Of a stretch of 64,000 nt of DNA, positions 7,901 through 62,127 are shown piece by piece. The notes below the pieces were generated by a model. The model was not told the origin of the DNA and did no database searches. It was given only the letters and a program-made list of their open reading frames with translations. The DNA comes from Pseudomonas baetica (GTDB taxonomy: Bacteria; Pseudomonadota; Gammaproteobacteria; Pseudomonadales; Pseudomonadaceae), in assembly GCF_002813455.1 (NCBI RefSeq), contig NZ_PHHE01000001.1, positions 3,275,001 to 3,339,000 on the forward strand, written 5' to 3'. A program made the translations under genes and the position numbers. The stretch's first letter is position 1. Each line of letters begins with the position of its first letter.

Positions 7901-8007
7901 GCGATCGCGGTATCGCGGGACACGCCGGTCGTGTCCCGATGTTTCGACGCTGGCTCTAGCCCGGGCATTGCGCTAGCCTTGCGGCTCGCTAACCGTTACC
8001 GAGTCTT

Positions 8008-8316
8008 ATGCGTTTTCTTCAAAATCTGCTGTTCCCTTGCGCATTGTTAATGGCCTGCTGGACGACGTCGGTCGATGCCTTCGATATGTCGACCCAGAAC
8101 ACCGTCGTCAGCGTTTGGGCGACCGGCATGGTGTCTTCCGCACCTTTCGACCGTAAACTGCTGCTGGCTGCTCACGACGATGCAGCGGTGTTCGTTGCCA
8201 GTGACGGAGAACTGCGAGGCGCTCGACTGGAATCCGCACTGCATTACCTGCGCAAAACCCGGCCGAAACTTCATGTAAGCGACCTTGAACTGGCACAGGC
8301 AATTCTCGTCCAATAG
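8008..8316 (+). CDS. DUF2388 exported protein, copy 2
   Basis: This 102-aa paralog of the preceding gene has a signal peptide (RFLQNLLFPCALLMACWTTS...VDA) and the same core (AAHDDAAVFVASDGELRGARLESAL). Its middle part is diverged, since the serine/threonine-rich segment is shorter. A Cys at residue 17 lies in the hydrophobic region without a convincing lipobox. The ribosome binding site is weak (GAG 5 bp upstream). It is followed 27 bp later by copy 3. The function is unknown. Confidence 0.8.
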   Translation: MRFLQNLLFPCALLMACWTTSVDAFDMSTQNTVVSVWATGMVSSAPFDRKLLLAAHDDAAVFVASDGELRGARLESALHYLRKTRPKLHVSDLELAQAILVQ

Positions 8317-8343
8317 TTATCCTTGTCCTTCCGGAGTCGTTCC

Positions 8344-8664
8344 ATGCGTAGCCCGCTGATTGCTGCCGCCCTTGGCCTGTTTTTGTTGGCCGATGTGGCC
8401 CAGGCGCACACCCTGGTCGCCACCAGTAACATCATCGTTCGTGCCTCCCAGCGCACCATCGATTTCACCTCCGATACCACCACCTCGATTCGCGACTCGA
8501 AAATCATCCGGGAAGCCCACGACGACGCCGCCAGTTTCGTCGCCAGCAACGGTGATATCCGTGGCGCACACCTGGAAGCCGCGCTCAACACCTTGCGCAC
8601 TCGCGTGCCGGAAGCGCGCGACGCCAGTGATCAGGTTCTCGCTGAAGCCATCCTCGCACTGTGA
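8344..8664 (+). CDS. DUF2388 exported protein, copy 3
   Basis: This 106-aa third paralog has a signal peptide ending in ADVAQA, a TSDTTTSIRDSKII segment close to copy 1, and the core AHDDAASFVASNGDIRGAHLEAAL. The ATG at 8344 has GGAG 8 bp upstream. Its TGA overlaps the GTG start of the next gene by four bases (GTGA), so the DUF4105 protein is translationally coupled to this copy. The function is unknown. Confidence 0.84.
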   Translation: MRSPLIAAALGLFLLADVAQAHTLVATSNIIVRASQRTIDFTSDTTTSIRDSKIIREAHDDAASFVASNGDIRGAHLEAALNTLRTRVPEARDASDQVLAEAILAL

Positions 8665-10622
8665 GGTCACTCGGCGCCTGGCTACTGGCCGGGACGTTGT
8701 TGCTGCTTGGCAACAGCGCCCACGCCGGCCTGCAATTACGGCTCAAGACTGACGGCCTGAGCCCAGCCCAACAACAGGCCAGCCAGGCGCTGATCGATGA
8801 AGCCATGCGCGCGCTGCCGCCGAGCTTCATCGAGCGGCTGGATCGGCGCATCGATGTCGGCTGGACCGACGACATGCCCGTCAATGCCTATGGCCAGGCC
8901 ACGCTGGTTGCCGAACTCGATCTGAACCGCAAACTGCTCGCCAGCCTCACCGACGGCAGCGCCGCCAAAGAGAAAACCAATCGCCCCCACGGCACTGTGC
9001 GTCAGGAACTGCTCGCCACCGTGCTGCACGAAATCACCCACATTTATGACCGCGCGCGCTTGTGGCCGAGTGCCGAACGCACGCTGATCCAGCGTTGCAC
9101 CCGGCGTTTCAATAGCGCCGGGCTGATCGGTATCCCCGATGAATGCCGTGGCCAGAACGGCCGCCGCTTTACCCTCAGCGATGACCCGCGTCTGCTCGAC
9201 CTTGCCGGTTGGCAGCAATACGTCGGCCGTCGTGGCGAACGCGAACAGCACAACCGGCAGATCGCCCGCAGCCCGGATTTGTACGAAATCTCCAGTCCAA
9301 AGGAGTTCGTCGCGGTCAACATGGAGTATTTCCTCCTCGACCCGAGCTATGCCTGCCGCCGTCCGGCGTTGTACCGCTACTACCAGGAACACTTCGGCTG
9401 GGCACCACCGGCCAAGGACACCTGCAGCAAGACCTTCGCCTTCCTCAATGCCGGTAACGACTTCGCCAAGCAGCCCTTGGGACAGGTCGACCCGGAACGG
9501 GTTTACGCCGTCGATTATCTGCTCGCCGAGGCCAATCAGAACTGGGTCAGCCGTTGGGGCCACAGCATGTTGCGGCTGGTGATCTGCGCACCCGGTCGGC
9601 CGCGTGGCCCGGATTGCCGGCTCGATCTGGATCAGCATCTGGTGCTGTCGTATCGCGCCTTCGTAGGCGATGTGCAGCTGTCGAGCTGGGACGGACTGGT
9701 CGGCAAGTACCCTTCACGATTGTTCGTCCTGCCATTGGCACAAGTCATCGACGAATACACCAAGACCGAACTGCGCAGCCTCGCTTCGGTACCGCTGAAT
9801 CTGTCACGCAACGAGATCGAAGGCGTGGTCGAACACGCCGCCGAGATGCACTGGAGCTACGACGGTAACTACTTCTTCCTGTCCAACAACTGCGCGGTAG
9901 AAGGCCTGAAACTGTTGCGCAGCGGCAGCAACAACGCGCAGCTCACCGGCCTGGACAGCATCATGCCCAACGGTTTGCTGGAAGTGCTCAAGGGCCGGGG
10001 CCTGGCCGACACCAGCGTGCTGGATGATCCCAAAGAGGCGCTGCGTCTGGGTTATCGCTTCGATTCGTTCCGTGATCGTTATCAGGCGATGTTCGATGTA
10101 CTGAAGAAGCAATTGCCGATCAAACAGAACAGTGTTGAGCAATGGCTTTCGTTGACTGCCGAGGAACGCCGCCCGTGGTTCGAACGTGCCGACCTGCGCA
10201 CCAGCGCCGCACTGCTGCTGTTGGAACAGGCGAGCTACCGGCGACAGTTGTTGCTCGCACAGGACGAGGTCAAGCAGCGTTACCTCGGCGCACGCGAACT
10301 GGAAAACGGCGGCATGGACAAAGCCAACGCGACCTTGCAGGAAATCCTCGCCAATAGCGGCTTCCTCAGTCGCCCGGCGGAATTGCTCGACTCCAAGGGT
10401 TACGGCTTGCCGCAACCGAGCGAATTCAGCCGCTTGGAAGCAGAAAGCAGCCAGCGGCAGAAAAAGCTCCTGGCCCTTTCCGGAGATCTGGACACCGAAG
10501 TGCGAAAGTTGCTGGAGCCCAAGCGTGCTGCCGAGATTGCGGCGAGCGAAGCCAACGTGAAACAGATTGGCGAGCATTTGCGCAAACTGCACAAGGCGTC
10601 TGGCGGACTGGAACTGCCATAA
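8661..10622 (+). CDS. DUF4105 / Lnb N-terminal-domain protein with HExxH motif
   Basis: This large exported protein has 653 aa and a signal peptide (residues 1-22). Residues 30-230 contain a zinc-metalloprotease-like HEITH at 123-127. A DUF4105 (Lnb N-terminal periplasmic) domain follows around residues 285-470 (SRWGHSMLRLVIC, then the FFLSNNCAVEGLKLL Cys-containing stretch). A helical, charged C-terminal region contains ERRPWFERADLR and a coiled-coil-like tail. Lnb-type domains occur in lipoprotein transacylases and related cysteine hydrolases, so this may be a bifunctional envelope enzyme. That is inference, since neither activity is proven by sequence. It starts at a GTG overlapping DUF2388 copy 3 and is the last gene of the operon. 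Confidence 0.8.
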   Translation: MRSLGAWLLAGTLLLLGNSAHAGLQLRLKTDGLSPAQQQASQALIDEAMRALPPSFIERLDRRIDVGWTDDMPVNAYGQATLVAELDLNRKLLASLTDGSAAKEKTNRPHGTVRQELLATVLHEITHIYDRARLWPSAERTLIQRCTRRFNSAGLIGIPDECRGQNGRRFTLSDDPRLLDLAGWQQYVGRRGEREQHNRQIARSPDLYEISSPKEFVAVNMEYFLLDPSYACRRPALYRYYQEHFGWAPPAKDTCSKTFAFLNAGNDFAKQPLGQVDPERVYAVDYLLAEANQNWVSRWGHSMLRLVICAPGRPRGPDCRLDLDQHLVLSYRAFVGDVQLSSWDGLVGKYPSRLFVLPLAQVIDEYTKTELRSLASVPLNLSRNEIEGVVEHAAEMHWSYDGNYFFLSNNCAVEGLKLLRSGSNNAQLTGLDSIMPNGLLEVLKGRGLADTSVLDDPKEALRLGYRFDSFRDRYQAMFDVLKKQLPIKQNSVEQWLSLTAEERRPWFERADLRTSAALLLLEQASYRRQLLLAQDEVKQRYLGARELENGGMDKANATLQEILANSGFLSRPAELLDSKGYGLPQPSEFSRLEAESSQRQKKLLALSGDLDTEVRKLLEPKRAAEIAASEANVKQIGEHLRKLHKASGGLELP

Positions 10623-10626
10623 AAGC

Positions 10627-10654
10627 GAAAGATCGCAGCCTGCGGCAGCTCCTA
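10627..10654 (+). repeat. REP sequence (GATCGCAGCCTGCGGCAGCTCCTA type), left arm
   Basis: This is the inverted copy of the REP at 12111-12139. The two arms formed one palindromic element before IS insertion. The last two bases (TA, 10653-10654) are the apparent core dinucleotide repeated at the right end of the IS (12091-12092). Confidence 0.85.
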
Positions 10655-10689
10655 TGTATGGACTCGCCCCCACTGTCTACCCGTTTTTT

Positions 10690-10924
10690 GAAAACTGTCG
10701 CCCCGTTGCATCTATGTATTAGGCCTATTCGTGGAAGCCGTCTTCGGCCTCTGGCCAAAATTGGAAGAGCTCGTGGCATGCCGATTACAGTCAGGCCTCG
10801 AAGGCCAGTAGGAGCTTAGGCATCAATCCACGCTGGTCTTACCTGGGGTCAATTTTTTTCAGCAAAGGGTCGGACAGTCAGTACCTCGGTGGCAGAACTC
10901 GGTCGCTCAGTGGCTTATCGTCGC
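10690..10924 (-). ncRNA. Candidate bridge RNA of the IS110-family element
   Basis: Read on the minus strand, two structured loops appear. The first (10823 to 10778) has a closing stem ATGCC/GGCAT. One internal-loop side is AGCTCCTAC (10816-10808), identical to the REP flank. Its apical hairpin is GGCC-TTCGA-GGCC. The other side is CTGTA (10790-10786), complementary to TACAG on the other flank. The second (10765 to 10712) has TCCAATT (10765-10759), identical to the right end of the IS. A hairpin with GCCG-AAGA-CGGC follows, and then ATACATAG (10719-10712), complementary to CTATGTAT at the left junction. This is the target-loop plus donor-loop plan known for IS110 bridge RNAs. RNA ends are approximate, and transcription is inferred. 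Confidence 0.7.
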
Positions 10925-12010
10925 TTACTGACCATTACCAGCATGACGACGATAAGACTGGTCATTCTGTAGAAGCACCCAGACGATTCGTAGGTTGCGG
11001 TTGGCTAACCTGATCGCAGCCTCCTTACGGCCCAGTCGGCTCATCCACCGCAACAAGCGGCGGTCATCGGGTTGCAGGGAATCAGGTCGCAGTTGTTGCA
11101 GGACCGAATGGGCTCCCTGGATCATCAAGCTGCGTAAATAAACATCACCTCGCTTGGTCATGTCGCCCAGCCGGACCGTCTGCCCGCTGCTGTGCTGGTC
11201 AGGCACCATGCCAAAGTACGCGGCAAACTTGCGGGCATTGGGAAACCGCTCAGGGTTGGTTTCCTTGGCCACCAGTGCCGTGGCAATGACTGGGCCAATG
11301 CCGCGCACGGTCATCAGTCGCCTCGCTGTCATGTCGGCGTTAGCGGCCACTTCCAGGCGGCCCGTCAACACGCCGATGCGCTCGCCCAAATGGCGCCACT
11401 CAGCCAACAGTTCGTCGATCAATTCACGCAGCAGGCCAGGCAGTGGCTGGGTCGCATCTTCCAGTACCCGCGGAATCTTCTGACTGATCGCAACATCGCC
11501 CTGCGCCAAGGCCACGCCGTGCTCGAGCAGCAGGCCGCGCATCTGATTGCTGACCGCCGTGCGTCGACGCACATAGCCCTGACGGGCGCGATGCAGCGCT
11601 TGCATTGCCAGCGCAGCAACGCTTTTGACCGGTACCGCGCAGATTTTTTCATCGCGACCAGCGCGCAGAATCGCCAGCGCATCGTTGCGATCATTTTTAG
11701 GCCCACTGCGGTGTGTGGTCACCAAACCGGCTGGAAGAATCCGCGCCAGATTACCTTTGTCTTGCAACTGCCGGGCCCAGGCTTGAGCTCCCGGACCGGT
11801 CTCCATCAAAACCACGACATGAGGCGGCAGCTGTTGGAGAAACTCATAAAACGCCTCACGCGACTTGATCCGCTGTTCATAGCGCACCTGGCCGAGGACA
11901 TCTTCACCAGCGACCTGAAAGACCTGTTTGGCCAGATCTACCGCCAAAGTTGTGCAGGCCGACAAATCGGAAGAAGACAGGGATTGATCATTCGAACTAT
12001 GATTTTTCAT
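10925..12010 (-). CDS. IS110-family transposase (DEDD recombinase)
   Basis: This intact 361-aa transposase has an N-terminal RuvC-like domain whose DEDD residues can be placed: D25 (TTLAVDLAKQ), E70 (VVVLMETGPG) and D107/D110 (GPKNDRNDA). A C-terminal Tnp domain contains the helix-hairpin-helix segment LMTVRGIGPVIATALVA and the serine region FGMVPDQHSSGQTVRLG. The start ATG overlaps a copy of the 12-bp terminal repeat (12009-12020), so protein binding there could affect translation or transcription. The long non-coding stretch lies downstream of the gene, as in the IS1111 group. Confidence 0.92.
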   Translation of the reverse strand: MKNHSSNDQSLSSSDLSACTTLAVDLAKQVFQVAGEDVLGQVRYEQRIKSREAFYEFLQQLPPHVVVLMETGPGAQAWARQLQDKGNLARILPAGLVTTHRSGPKNDRNDALAILRAGRDEKICAVPVKSVAALAMQALHRARQGYVRRRTAVSNQMRGLLLEHGVALAQGDVAISQKIPRVLEDATQPLPGLLRELIDELLAEWRHLGERIGVLTGRLEVAANADMTARRLMTVRGIGPVIATALVAKETNPERFPNARKFAAYFGMVPDQHSSGQTVRLGDMTKRGDVYLRSLMIQGAHSVLQQLRPDSLQPDDRRLLRWMSRLGRKEAAIRLANRNLRIVWVLLQNDQSYRRHAGNGQ

Positions 12011-12110
12011 GGACTCGCCCTCGCTGTCGATGGCTGTTTAGACTGCCACCGTGGCGCATTGACGCCTCGGCTTGGGCGAGTCCATCCAATTACAGAGGGA
12101 TCGAATTCCC

Positions 12111-12139
12111 TGTAGGAGCTGCCGCAGGCTGCGATCTTT
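12111..12139 (-). repeat. REP sequence, right arm (GTAGGAGCTGCCGCAGGCTG type)
   Basis: This is the inverted partner of 10627-10654. Together with the 12093-12110 palindromic spacer (CAGAGGGATCGAATTCCC) it is the original REP element into which the IS110-family element inserted. Confidence 0.85.
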
Positions 12140-12153
12140 TGACTGACTAACGA

Positions 12154-12609
12154 TTAATACAAAACCCCATCCAGAATTTCATAAACGATCCCGGTGCCCA
12201 CCGCGATCAGCACGATATCGCCACCAGCCCGGCGCCATTCATAACCCGGATAGACCGGCAAACGACCTAACGCACGACCATCCAGGCGCTCACCGTAATA
12301 ACCGTGCGGCAATGGCCGGCCACGCTCCAGGTGGATGCCCGGCGGCGGCGGCGCACCGCGCACGAAGTAGCCGTGGTTGTCGCGAATGGTCTGGCGCACC
12401 GGACCGAAGTCGCGAGGTGGCGGGCCGCCTCGGTGGTTGTTCGGCGGGCCACGGCGATCGTCACCGCGATGCTCCCCTTGGTTGTCGTAATGGCCCTGCT
12501 GCGGGCCGCCGCGGTCGTGATCATCGCGCTGATCGGCGCTGGCCAGCAGCGGAGTCGCGCTGATCATCAGCACACCCAATCCGGCCATCAGACGTTTCGG
12601 CATTTTCAT
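12154..12609 (-). CDS. RcnB/CigR-like exported small protein
   Basis: This 151-aa protein has a signal peptide (KMPKRLMAGLGVLMISATPLLASA), a low-complexity H/D/R/G/P-rich segment (residues 26-75), and a C-terminal RcnB-like domain (RGRPLPHGYYGERLDG, LPVYPGYEWRRAG, ending IVYEILDGVLY). Relatives include the nickel/cobalt homeostasis protein RcnB and the Salmonella anti-virulence protein CigR; the role here is unknown. The ATG at 12609 is chosen because GAGGAAAG lies just upstream; the earlier in-frame GTG at 12624 overlaps that site. It is transcribed away from the IS and sits convergent to nothing. Confidence 0.75.
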   Translation of the reverse strand: MKMPKRLMAGLGVLMISATPLLASADQRDDHDRGGPQQGHYDNQGEHRGDDRRGPPNNHRGGPPPRDFGPVRQTIRDNHGYFVRGAPPPPGIHLERGRPLPHGYYGERLDGRALGRLPVYPGYEWRRAGGDIVLIAVGTGIVYEILDGVLY

Positions 12610-12636
12610 TCGGTCTTTCCTCACAGCACTGACAGC

Positions 12637-12669
12637 AAAAAGGGCTTCAGAACGTAGTCCTGAAGCCCT
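12637..12669 (-). terminator. Terminator of trpBA
   Basis: In the minus direction, the AGGGCTTCAG/CTGAAGCCCT stem is followed by a run of T (AAAA at 12637-12640 on the plus strand). It lies about 60 bp past the trpA stop. Confidence 0.85.
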
Positions 12670-12731
12670 CGGTCTTGCTTGTTTAGTCTGTACCGTGAGG
12701 TGCTAATTCCTCTGTATCAGGAACTTTACCT

Positions 12732-13543
12732 TCAACTGACGCGGGCCTTACGCACGCCTTCGGACAGCGCCGAGCACAGGCTCAACACGCCATCGATGGC
12801 CTGATCCGGCGTGGTCGCGTTGGCGATGTGATCGATCAGCGCCGAACCCACCACCACACCGTCGGCAAGACGCGCAATGGCCGCCGCTTGCTCCGGGGTA
12901 CGGATACCGAAACCAATGCTGATCGGCAGATCGGTATGGCGGCGCAGACGGGTCACTGCCTCTTCGACGTGCTCCAGCGTTGCCGCACCGGCACCGGTCA
13001 CACCGGCCACGGACACGTAGTAAACAAATCCGGAACTGCCGTTGAGCACCTTCGGCAGACGTGCGTCGTCGGTGGTCGGCGTGGTCAGGCGGATGAAGTC
13101 CAGACCGGCAGCCTGGGCCGGGTCGCAGAGTTCTTCGTTGTGCTCTGGCGGCATGTCGACCACGATCAGACCATCGACGCCTGCCTCTTTGGCTTCAGCG
13201 ATGAAACGCTCAACGCCAAACTTGTGGATCGGGTTGAAGTAGCCCATCAGCACCAGCGGCGTATCGCTATTGTCTTCACGGAACTCGCGAACCATTTGCA
13301 GGGTTTTCGCCAGATTCTGCTTGGCACCCAGCGCACGGATATTGGCGAGTTGAATCGCCGGGCCGTCCGCCATCGGGTCGGTGAACGGCATGCCCAGTTC
13401 GATAACGTCGGCACCGGCCTTGGGCAAGCCCTTGAGGATCGCCAGCGAAGTGTCGTAATCCGGGTCACCGGCGGTGACGAAGGTCACCAGCGCGGCACGA
13501 TTTTGTTGTTTGAGTTCGGCAAATCGGGTTTGCAGGCGGCTCA

Positions 13544-13544
<1 letters not shown>
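12732..13544 (-). CDS. trpA: Tryptophan synthase alpha subunit
   Basis: This 270-aa TIM-barrel subunit cleaves indole-3-glycerol phosphate to indole and glyceraldehyde-3-phosphate and channels indole to TrpB. The family signature [15 protein letters not shown] appears as [16 protein letters not shown], with the catalytic Glu and Asp present (E in IELG, D in FTDP). The phosphate-binding loop is [13 protein letters not shown]. The start MSRLQTRF at 13544 shares one base with the trpB stop (TGATG-type overlap), so translation is coupled; a longer open frame upstream belongs to trpB on another frame. A terminator follows. Confidence 0.96.
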
Positions 13545-14890
<1,346 letters not shown>

Positions 14891-15808
14891 ATGAGCCACG
14901 ACCTTCCCCCGCTGAACGCCCTGCGCGCCTTCGAAGCCACGGCCCGGCTGAACAGCGTCAGTCAGGCCGCCGAACAGCTGCACGTCACCCATGGCGCAGT
15001 GAGTCGACAGCTCAAAGTGCTGGAAGAACACCTTGGTGTCAGCCTGTTCGTCAAGGATGGACGCGGCTTGAAACTCACAGATGCCGGCGTGCGTTTGCGC
15101 GATGCCAGCGGCGAAGCGTTTGACCGGTTGCGCAGCGTTTGTGCAGAGCTGACGCAAAGCACCGCCGATGCGCCGTTCGTGCTCGGTTGCTCCGGAAGTT
15201 TGCTGGCGCGCTGGTTTATTCCGCGACTGGGGCGCTTGAATGCCGATCTGCCGGACTTGCGTCTGCACCTCTCGGCGGGAGAAGGCGATCTCGATCCCAG
15301 ACGTCCGGGGCTGGATGCTCTCCTGCTGTTCGCCGAACCACCATGGCCGGCGGACATGCAGGTGTATGAACTGGCTGCGGAACGCATCGGCCCGGTGCTG
15401 AGCCCGCTGTTCAGCGGCTATCAACGCCTGCAAACGGCATCTGCCGAAGCCTTGCTCGATGAGCCGCTGCTGCACACGACGTCACGCCCGCAAGCCTGGC
15501 CGAGCTGGGCACAGCAAAACCACCTCGACACCAAGGCATTGAAGCTCGGACAAGGTTTTGAGCATTTGTATTATTTGCTGGAAGCGGCGGTTGCAGGTCT
15601 CGGCGTGGCCATCGCGCCGGAGCCGCTGGTTACCGAGGATTTGAAGGCCGGTCGCCTGGTTGCGCCGTGGGGCTTCTGTGAAACCCCGGCGCAACTGGCG
15701 TTGTGGCTACCCAAGCGCGCCGCGGACGGGCGCGCTCGGCAACTGGCGCAATGGCTCAAGCATGAGCTGCGCCAGAGCGATCACTCGCCGCGCTTGAACA
15801 GCAAGTAA
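14891..15808 (+). CDS. trpI: LysR-type activator of trpBA
   Basis: This 305-aa LysR regulator has an N-terminal HTH ([20 protein letters not shown], then [16 protein letters not shown]) and an effector domain with the segment [17 protein letters not shown]. In pseudomonads TrpI senses indoleglycerol phosphate and activates the divergent trpBA operon. The start ATG is at 14891. Its last 28 bp overlap, convergently, the end of the DUF883 gene on the minus strand. Confidence 0.93.
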
Positions 15809-61859: not shown

Positions 61860-61990
61860 GAATGGCTGGTGAAGCCCTTCGATGCTCCTATGTTGTGTTA
61901 AGTGTTGGCAGATATCTGAACCCCGCCCTAGCGGTTCGGAACTTAAACCCCGGAATTTCTCCCTCCCCAATGAAATCCGGGGCTTTTTTT
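61860..61990 (+). ncRNA. ersA: ErsA-like Hfq-dependent small RNA
   Basis: The locus lies between polA and engB, the place of ErsA in P. aeruginosa (and of Spot 42 in E. coli). From the AlgU-type promoter to the T-run the transcript would be about 131 nt, close to the known ErsA length. The terminator stem AAACCCCGGAATTTC/GAAATCCGGGG holds a loop rich in C (TCCCTCCCCAAT), suited to pair with Shine-Dalgarno regions. Family knowledge: ErsA is sigma-22 dependent and represses algC; that target is assumed, not shown. Confidence 0.78.
61945..61990 (+). terminator. Intrinsic terminator of the ErsA-like sRNA
   Basis: A perfect CCCCGGA(A)TTTC/GAAATCCGGGG-type stem, with a C-rich loop, is followed by TTTTTTT. 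Confidence 0.85.
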
Positions 61991-62127
61991 GCCCAAAACT
62001 TGTCTGTAGCGCGTTCATGCTGCGTTGAAAGATCAGCTCAAATGCTCATTTAGGTCCCCTAAACTCCGCTTTTCACCGCCCTTTCGCCTTGCCTGAACAC
62101 ACTACAAACAAATTTCCATATCCCGAC

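Follow-up and report, generated by a model that had tools for sequence, protein, structure and literature searches.

How does an insertion sequence (IS) come to occupy the same site, in the same orientation, every time it enters a genome? The question is raised by a copy in the stretch of Pseudomonas baetica DNA analysed here (the window: 64,000 nucleotides, positions 3,275,001-3,339,000 of a 6.90-Mb single-contig genome). That genome harbours nine near-identical copies of the element, and all of them (9/9) lie at one type of site and in one orientation, without target duplication. Taking the sequence comparisons together, we estimate at roughly 0.93 the probability that this is an IS1111-group element moving as an RNA-guided recombinase, with a guide of the kind called bridge RNA or seekRNA.

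According to the mechanism that we propose, the region downstream of the transposase gene (tnp) would be transcribed as a two-loop RNA. The first loop would base-pair with the two strands of the REP edge TG-TA-GGAGCT, and the second would do so with those of ATACA-TA-ATTGGA, the IS ends as they would be joined in a circular form of the element. The DEDD/serine recombinase would bind this RNA, join the two DNAs at the TA that they share and exchange strands there, so that the IS would enter in one orientation only and leave the site unduplicated.

Element and insertion site

The IS spans 10655-12092 on the minus strand (1,438 bp with one TA core counted; 10653-12090 is an equally valid placement). 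Its non-coding DNA amounts to 270 bp downstream of tnp versus 82 bp upstream, which is the layout of the IS1111 group and bears out the initial annotation, where an IS1111-like arrangement with the RNA region downstream of the transposase had been proposed. The ends also follow the rule of this group. Perfect 12-bp subterminal inverted repeats, ATGGACTCGCCC at the right end in tnp orientation (10658-10669, plus strand) and GGGCGAGTCCAT at the left end (12074-12085, plus strand), are prolonged by extensions of 3 nt (ACA, 10655-10657) and 7 nt (TAATTGG, 12086-12092), respectively; in IS1111 elements, the subterminal repeats usually measure 11-13 bp, and extensions of 7 nt on the left and 3 nt on the right are described (PMC11187229). 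The element does not belong to the IS110 group proper (IS621-type), in which the RNA precedes the gene and inverted repeats are very short; here the RNA region is downstream of the gene and the repeats are 12 bp long.

The IS is found at the edge of a REP (10631-10654, plus strand) whose inverted partner lies at 12111-12136 (plus strand). Both were delineated from the sequence and from the orthologous place in another genome, G036, where the REP pair is uninterrupted. This empty site indicates that the IS entered at the REP edge, with no duplication beyond TA. The right flank (tnp orientation) has the edge TAGGAGCTGC in 9/9 own-genome copies, and TG precedes the TA core. When flanks were read by eye, an inverted partner REP was present close upstream in six of these copies (L001-L006). 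Inside the IS, the nine copies differ at a single position, 10834, where the RNA strand has an A in the window copy only; this position lies beyond the outer stem of the target loop, at a distance of two bases.

The tnp gene (12010-10925, minus strand) codes for a DEDD transposase/recombinase of 361 aa, with the Pfam domains DEDD_Tnp_IS110 and Transposase_20 (3.4e-23 and 1.3e-10) and a match to the NCBIfam model NF033542 for IS110 family RNA-guided transposases (1.6e-82). Against the Protein Data Bank, a seven-sequence profile of the transposase matches ISCro4 and IS621 across the C-terminal domain. D25, E70, D107, D110 and S275 are invariant in the seven sequences and, judging from the alignment, Ser275 would be the counterpart of the catalytic serine of IS621. 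The same protein (10925-12010, minus strand) also gives a weak match, under the cut-off, to the NCBIfam model of TIGR-Tas endonuclease (4.4e-7). Transposase relatives numbered 412 at E up to 1e-90; the names of the best 120 say transposase or IS110 family, and no IS name appears among those listed.

Predicted two-loop RNA

The sequence and conserved structure of the downstream non-coding region (10655-10924, minus strand) predict an RNA with two loops. The initial annotation had placed on this strand a loop directed at the REP target and another directed at the ends of the element itself, and all the motifs that it named were found. The target loop (10778-10823, minus strand), delimited like the donor loop from motif positions and an RNAalifold consensus, is closed by the stem ATGCC (10823-10819)/GGCAT (10782-10778) and comprises AGCTCCTAC (10816-10808), the hairpin GGCC-TTCGA-GGCC (10806-10794) and CTGTA (10790-10786). 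Target guide 1, AGCTCCTA (10809-10816, minus strand), assigned by covariation, is the complement of TA+GGAGCT in the right flank (tnp orientation). Target guide 2 is TGTA (10786-10789, minus strand), followed by AT (10785-10784), to which its match with the IS left end would give a role. As for the donor loop (10712-10765, minus strand), its guides were assigned by comparison of end strings: guide 1, TCCAATT (10759-10765, minus strand), is the complement of AATTGGA at the IS left end, and guide 2, ATACATAG (10719-10712, minus strand), is the same as the IS right end ATACA+TA, with the G of the target in addition. The identity of TCCAATT with an IS end, as first annotated, holds, with the end located at 12085-12091 of the plus strand and not at 12084-12090. 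Both guide pairs do meet at the TA core, as the initial annotation had it.

We shuffled the 235-nt region 10924-10690 20,000 times with dinucleotides preserved and searched for chance matches. AGCTCCTA, TCCAATT and ATACATA arose in 0.4%, 0.7% and 0.4% of the shuffles, respectively, and TGTA alone, a common string, in 32%. The target pair occurred in order in 0.02%, and the donor pair in order in 0/20,000.

The single-sequence fold of the window RNA region is not stabler than those of shuffles (z -0.25 and z -0.70), and the support for an RNA structure is therefore comparative. Among 20 aligned relatives, window copy included, 97.7% of the cells are paired in the two-loop structure compared with 94.4% after shuffling, and 11 pairs show two-sided changes versus 4.6 in shuffles, relatedness being left in these controls and the structure being derived from the same 20-sequence alignment on which it was scored. 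Sliding the structure along the alignment makes the paired cells drop to 45.9% or less. Covariation of the stems was found at the outer stem of the target loop (CGTGG 10832-10828/CCACG 10776-10772; loop and stem together 10772-10832, minus strand), with compensatory changes at three of its five pairs among the 20 relatives. In the closing stem ATGCC/GGCAT, the one named in the initial annotation, the four counted pairs are without variation, and covariation is thus uninformative about it.

No Rfam family matched this RNA, either in a permissive search of 8000-15000 or in a search of the whole window at gathering score, in which the sole match was the ErsA/Pseudomon-1 small RNA at 61882-61998 (plus strand). 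We also built a covariance model, R1, from the near group and searched it in 50 loci (43 distant IS1111 loci and seven others). At E up to 1 it matched 21 of the 43 distant IS1111 loci, in every case on the plus strand downstream of tnp, with 17 of the 21 matches at E below 0.05 and four above; the remaining 22 distant loci and all seven others (0/7) gave no match.

Target guides and insertion sites

Relatives were collected from genomes of the genus (12/199 matched at 1e-60 and 14/398 at 1e-90, own genome included and with overlap between the sets), from genomes of the family (4/298 with a match at 1e-110, own genome included) and from named genomes, for which the best 80 of 354 loci were taken. 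Once repeats were removed, 93 of 116 loci were kept; dropping 10 without a usable RNA or right flank left 83 rows. Genome G264 had 12 matches and G275 had 13, nine of which were parsed in each.

Complemented, guide 1 is identical at 8/8 positions to TA and the six right-flank bases in 77/83 rows, far above permuted pairings, or in 76 of 82 distinct copies, L014 being the same copy as L007. The rows that fall short are L038 (guide GCTGCTA at TAGGAGCT), L056, L166, L169, L178 and L179; the last matches at 5/8 and the other five at 7/8. Copies at unrelated sites with an unchanged loop 1, the pattern that the initial annotation regarded as contrary to its reading, are not what these rows show. The match has a sharp end, since position 9 fits the flank in 5/83 rows, less than a quarter. 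For 18 guide groups, positions 3-8 gave 107/108 matches (78.4 on average and 98 at most in 20,000 permutations), and for the first copy of each of eight distinct guide types 48/48 (permuted mean 29.5, maximum 46 in 20,000), figures that overstate independence because the copies are related by descent.

The left flank was compared in 81 rows. G(-1) matches in 81/81 and is invariant, hence provides no test, and T(-2) matches in 66/81 (permuted mean 60.2). For C(-3), the count of 33/81 is close to what permutation yields (mean 32.7), so that the left-flank guide initially read as CTGTA is reduced to TGTA. Outside the core, the bottom-strand match thus comprises only TG, of which only T(-2) varies. 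The top-strand target match precedes the bottom-strand match, which is the order in IS1111 seekRNAs or bridge RNAs.

Site variants were counted in seven genomes as exact matches on both strands (10-mers for the T and CT variants, 9-mers for the rest). GTAGGAGCTG, GTAGCAGCTG, GTAGGAGCC and GTAGGAGCG number 222, 19, 34 and 41 in G000, whose copies are at GGAGCT (9/9), 937, 192, 27 and 953 in G129, with copies at GCAGCT (6/6), and 9, 8, 291 and 717 in G182, with copies at GGAGCC (5/5). The counts of GTAGGAGCTG, GTAGGAGCC and GTAGGAGCG are 14, 141 and 90 in G012 (7/7 copies at GGAGCC), 62, 193 and 92 in G570 (3/3 at GGAGCC), 5, 38 and 309 in G139 (5/6 at GGAGCG, the sixth at GGAACG) and 5, 671 and 487 in G104 (3/3 at GGAGCG). 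The GGAGCC and GGAGCG repeats are, in the strict sense, putative REPs. Copies follow the guide in each of the seven genomes, and sites of the guide class abound in all, numbering at least 141. We also considered that the element might track the commonest site variant. This rule fails in three of the seven genomes (G129, G182 and G104), in which another variant is commoner, and abundance alone therefore cannot explain the sites.

The G129 element has a transposase 96% identical and one guide base changed, and 6/6 copies are at TAGCAGCT, TAGGAGCTG being about five times commoner than TAGCAGCT in that genome. If GTAGCAGCTG and GTAGGAGCTG were equally open to insertion, 6/6 would arise by chance about twice in 100,000.

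The sites of one lineage lie outside REPs. With the guide CGCTCTTA, all nine parsed copies of the 12 found in G264 are in a non-REP interspersed repeat, at the edge GCTGTAAGAGCGAAACC in eight copies and at a close variant in one; the guide match is 8/8 in eight and 7/8 in one. The commonest listed edge of this repeat is GCCGTAAGGGCG, at which 0/9 copies are found. At up to two mismatches, G264-type sites number none in G000 or G129 and three in G139. In G264 itself, the same tolerance gives 41 forward and 42 reverse edge sites genome-wide. Five stretches of the repeat that were read (e.g. L222-L226) have inverted edges approximately 620-670 bp apart.

Donor guides, element ends and possible handshake bases

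The comparison of end strings covered 77 elements, 36 near and 41 distant (35-41% identity). Ends were obtained for 52/65 rows of the distant set, of which 40 passed a first filter and 41 a slightly wider one. For a few distant elements the assigned ends are probably wrong by one or two bases, and some of the misses may be due to this.

In 72/77 elements, the string of their own right end recurs in the RNA region, a count made without permutation. By class, the string was found in 45/45 ATACAT, 17/17 ATATAC, 4/4 CTATAC, 2/2 TATACG, 2/3 ATATAT, 1/1 ACGGAT, 1/1 ACACAT, 0/2 TATATT, 0/1 ATACAG and 0/1 ATAAGA elements. Off-class strings also occur, namely TATACG in all ATATAC and CTATAC elements, where it is the same stretch displaced by one base, ACACAT in 4/17 ATATAC elements, and single cases. 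The own left-end string is present in the RNA region of 55/77 elements (19.1 on average and 31 at most in 2,000 permutations). Five of the 55 matches, which all belong to the TAATTAC class, correspond to GTAAT of the target loop, and removing this class gives 50/71. Within the near group, the left-end guide changes together with the IS end in G104 (TAATCGG with CCGAT) and L069 (TAATCAG with CTGAT). It misfits its own end at one to three positions in the classes TAATTAC, TAATTGA and TAATTGT, and partly in L071 and G469. With these exceptions, the donor loop matches the IS ends, which is a feature of IS1111 seekRNAs or bridge RNAs.

Once strands have been exchanged in IS621, core-adjacent bases of each loop pair with the other of the two DNAs (PMC11208158). 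Here, TA in the 3' guide of the target loop is followed by AT in 83/83 rows, the parsing pattern having required TA-AT at the cost of 0 rows, and the IS left end is TAAT in 81/81. The donor loop reads ATACA-TA-G in 82/83 rows, L071 being different. It is possible that the 3' guide of each loop carries such handshake bases, as in IS621; the bases concerned are nearly invariant. The first target base past the core is G in 74/83 rows, and the other nine, all from G264, have A yet keep the G guide, which counts against a strict handshake rule.

Predicted control of transposase expression

Joining the ends of the IS in a circle would place TAGACA (10674-10679, minus strand) 17 nt before CATAAT (10656-10655 joined to 12092-12089). 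We predict a junction promoter there, by analogy with ISEc11, from which its function is taken (PMC11187229); junction promoters are known in the IS1111 group (PMC11187229). By our own count, TAGACA, TTGACA or TTGAAT is present at a spacing of 16-18 nt in 70/81 rows.

A third copy of the inverted repeat (12009-12020, plus strand) overlaps the tnp start codon; in the mRNA leader, its predicted pairing partner is the left repeat. The predicted hairpin (12009-12085, minus strand) has a free energy of -44.4 kcal/mol (z -6.9). Pairing of the left and third repeats is predicted in 16/16 folded representatives, window copy included, and reaches the start codon in 15 of them, L033 being the exception. 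Judging from these folds, the leader hairpin likely acts as a translation lock. ISPpu9 has a comparable structured 5' leader (PMC8450116). Among 20 of 30 titles listed in the literature for IS1111, subterminal inverted repeat and start codon, none mentions a leader hairpin, which does not prove that such a hairpin has never been published.

Alternative explanations

The target loop might be the only guide, in the seekRNA sense, with the protein recognising the IS ends through the subterminal repeats and the donor matches being incidental. The seekRNA paper describes target matches in RNAs of 70-100 nt (PMC11187229), and our data contain a nearly invariant right inverted repeat and a left-end guide that is mismatched in some groups. 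We nevertheless find this explanation unlikely: the right-end string of the RNA tracks the IS end across the ATACA, ATATA, CTATA, ACGGA and ACACA classes, and the left-end count is above all 2,000 permutations. Much less credible still is direct reading of the REP by the transposase, as a sequence or a hairpin, the guide match then being a by-product of shared ancestry. REPs are palindromic and are targeted by several IS, some of them outside the group (PMC1525189), as such a reading would allow; however, it is at odds with two observations: transposases that are 96% identical occupy different REP variants according to one guide base, and one lineage with a corresponding guide occupies a repeat that is not a REP.

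As for the RNA, its main role could be to regulate transposase expression rather than to guide, as proposed for Ssr9 of ISPpu9. The latter element has a sense small RNA downstream of tnp in addition to its leader (PMC8450116), and the window element also has a strong leader hairpin. Regulation leaves the match and the covariation with external target DNA unexplained, and we consider it highly improbable as the main function. A recombinase guided by an RNA with target and donor loops remains the explanation that we prefer.

Comparison with known systems

The initial annotation regarded an IS1111 layout directed at a REP palindrome as new, and here it was superseded by published work on ISPa11 of P. 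aeruginosa (PMC11187229). The ISPa11 transposase was purified with RNA mapping downstream of tnp, and the 96-nt peak form of this RNA matches both strands of the P. aeruginosa REP target (PMC11187229). In the same study, the RNA was shown for four members of the IS1111 group, the REP-targeting ISPa11 among them, and natural reprogramming was shown as well. Bridge RNAs have been predicted in 93.0% of IS1111 elements, mostly at the right end and with base-pairing loops (PMC11208160), and by 2006 such elements had been reported to target REPs (PMC1525189). In light of these papers, the element adds a member to a described kind of system. It shares with ISPa11 the IS1111 layout, the downstream RNA, the top-strand match before the bottom-strand match and the REP target (PMC11187229). 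ISPa11 is nevertheless another element, compared by its description, and target matches are reported for it, whereas donor matches are examined here.

IS621 of E. coli is similar in having target and donor loops around a shared core, a REP target and a homologous C-terminal domain; it differs by the location of its RNA upstream of the gene, as in the IS110 group, and by the reversed order of the strand matches (PMC11187229, PMC11208160). ISPpu9 and ISPpu10 of P. putida also insert in REPs (PMC1525189). ISPpu9 was assigned to the IS110/IS492 family (PMC8450116), and it differs, from its description, in having an AG repeat at the insertion site and the antisense Asr9 (PMC8450116).

We are inclined to think that one and the same IS1111 lineage alters a base or a few bases of its guide upon host change, each time towards a repeat class plentiful in the host (GGAGCT, GCAGCT, GGAGCC, GGAGCG or non-REP), thereby forming a natural co-evolution series, and that its 3' guides may also carry handshake bases. 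If so, the co-evolution of a guide RNA with host repeats could be read as a series from genomes alone. In any case, the lineage amounts to a natural experiment, in which recombinases as much as 96% identical, with guides differing by one base, occupy correspondingly different sites despite hundreds of available near-matches. Such a series bears on the strictness of natural targeting and on how these elements switch targets. Covariation of the donor loop across distant IS1111 elements, for its part, favours for this group a bridge RNA with two loops rather than a guide for the target alone. Published cases of natural target-guide reprogramming are ISEc11 and ISXne4 of the same group (PMC11187229); what distinguishes the present case from those descriptions is the occurrence of eight guide types in one lineage, including a one-base change at 96%-identical transposases.
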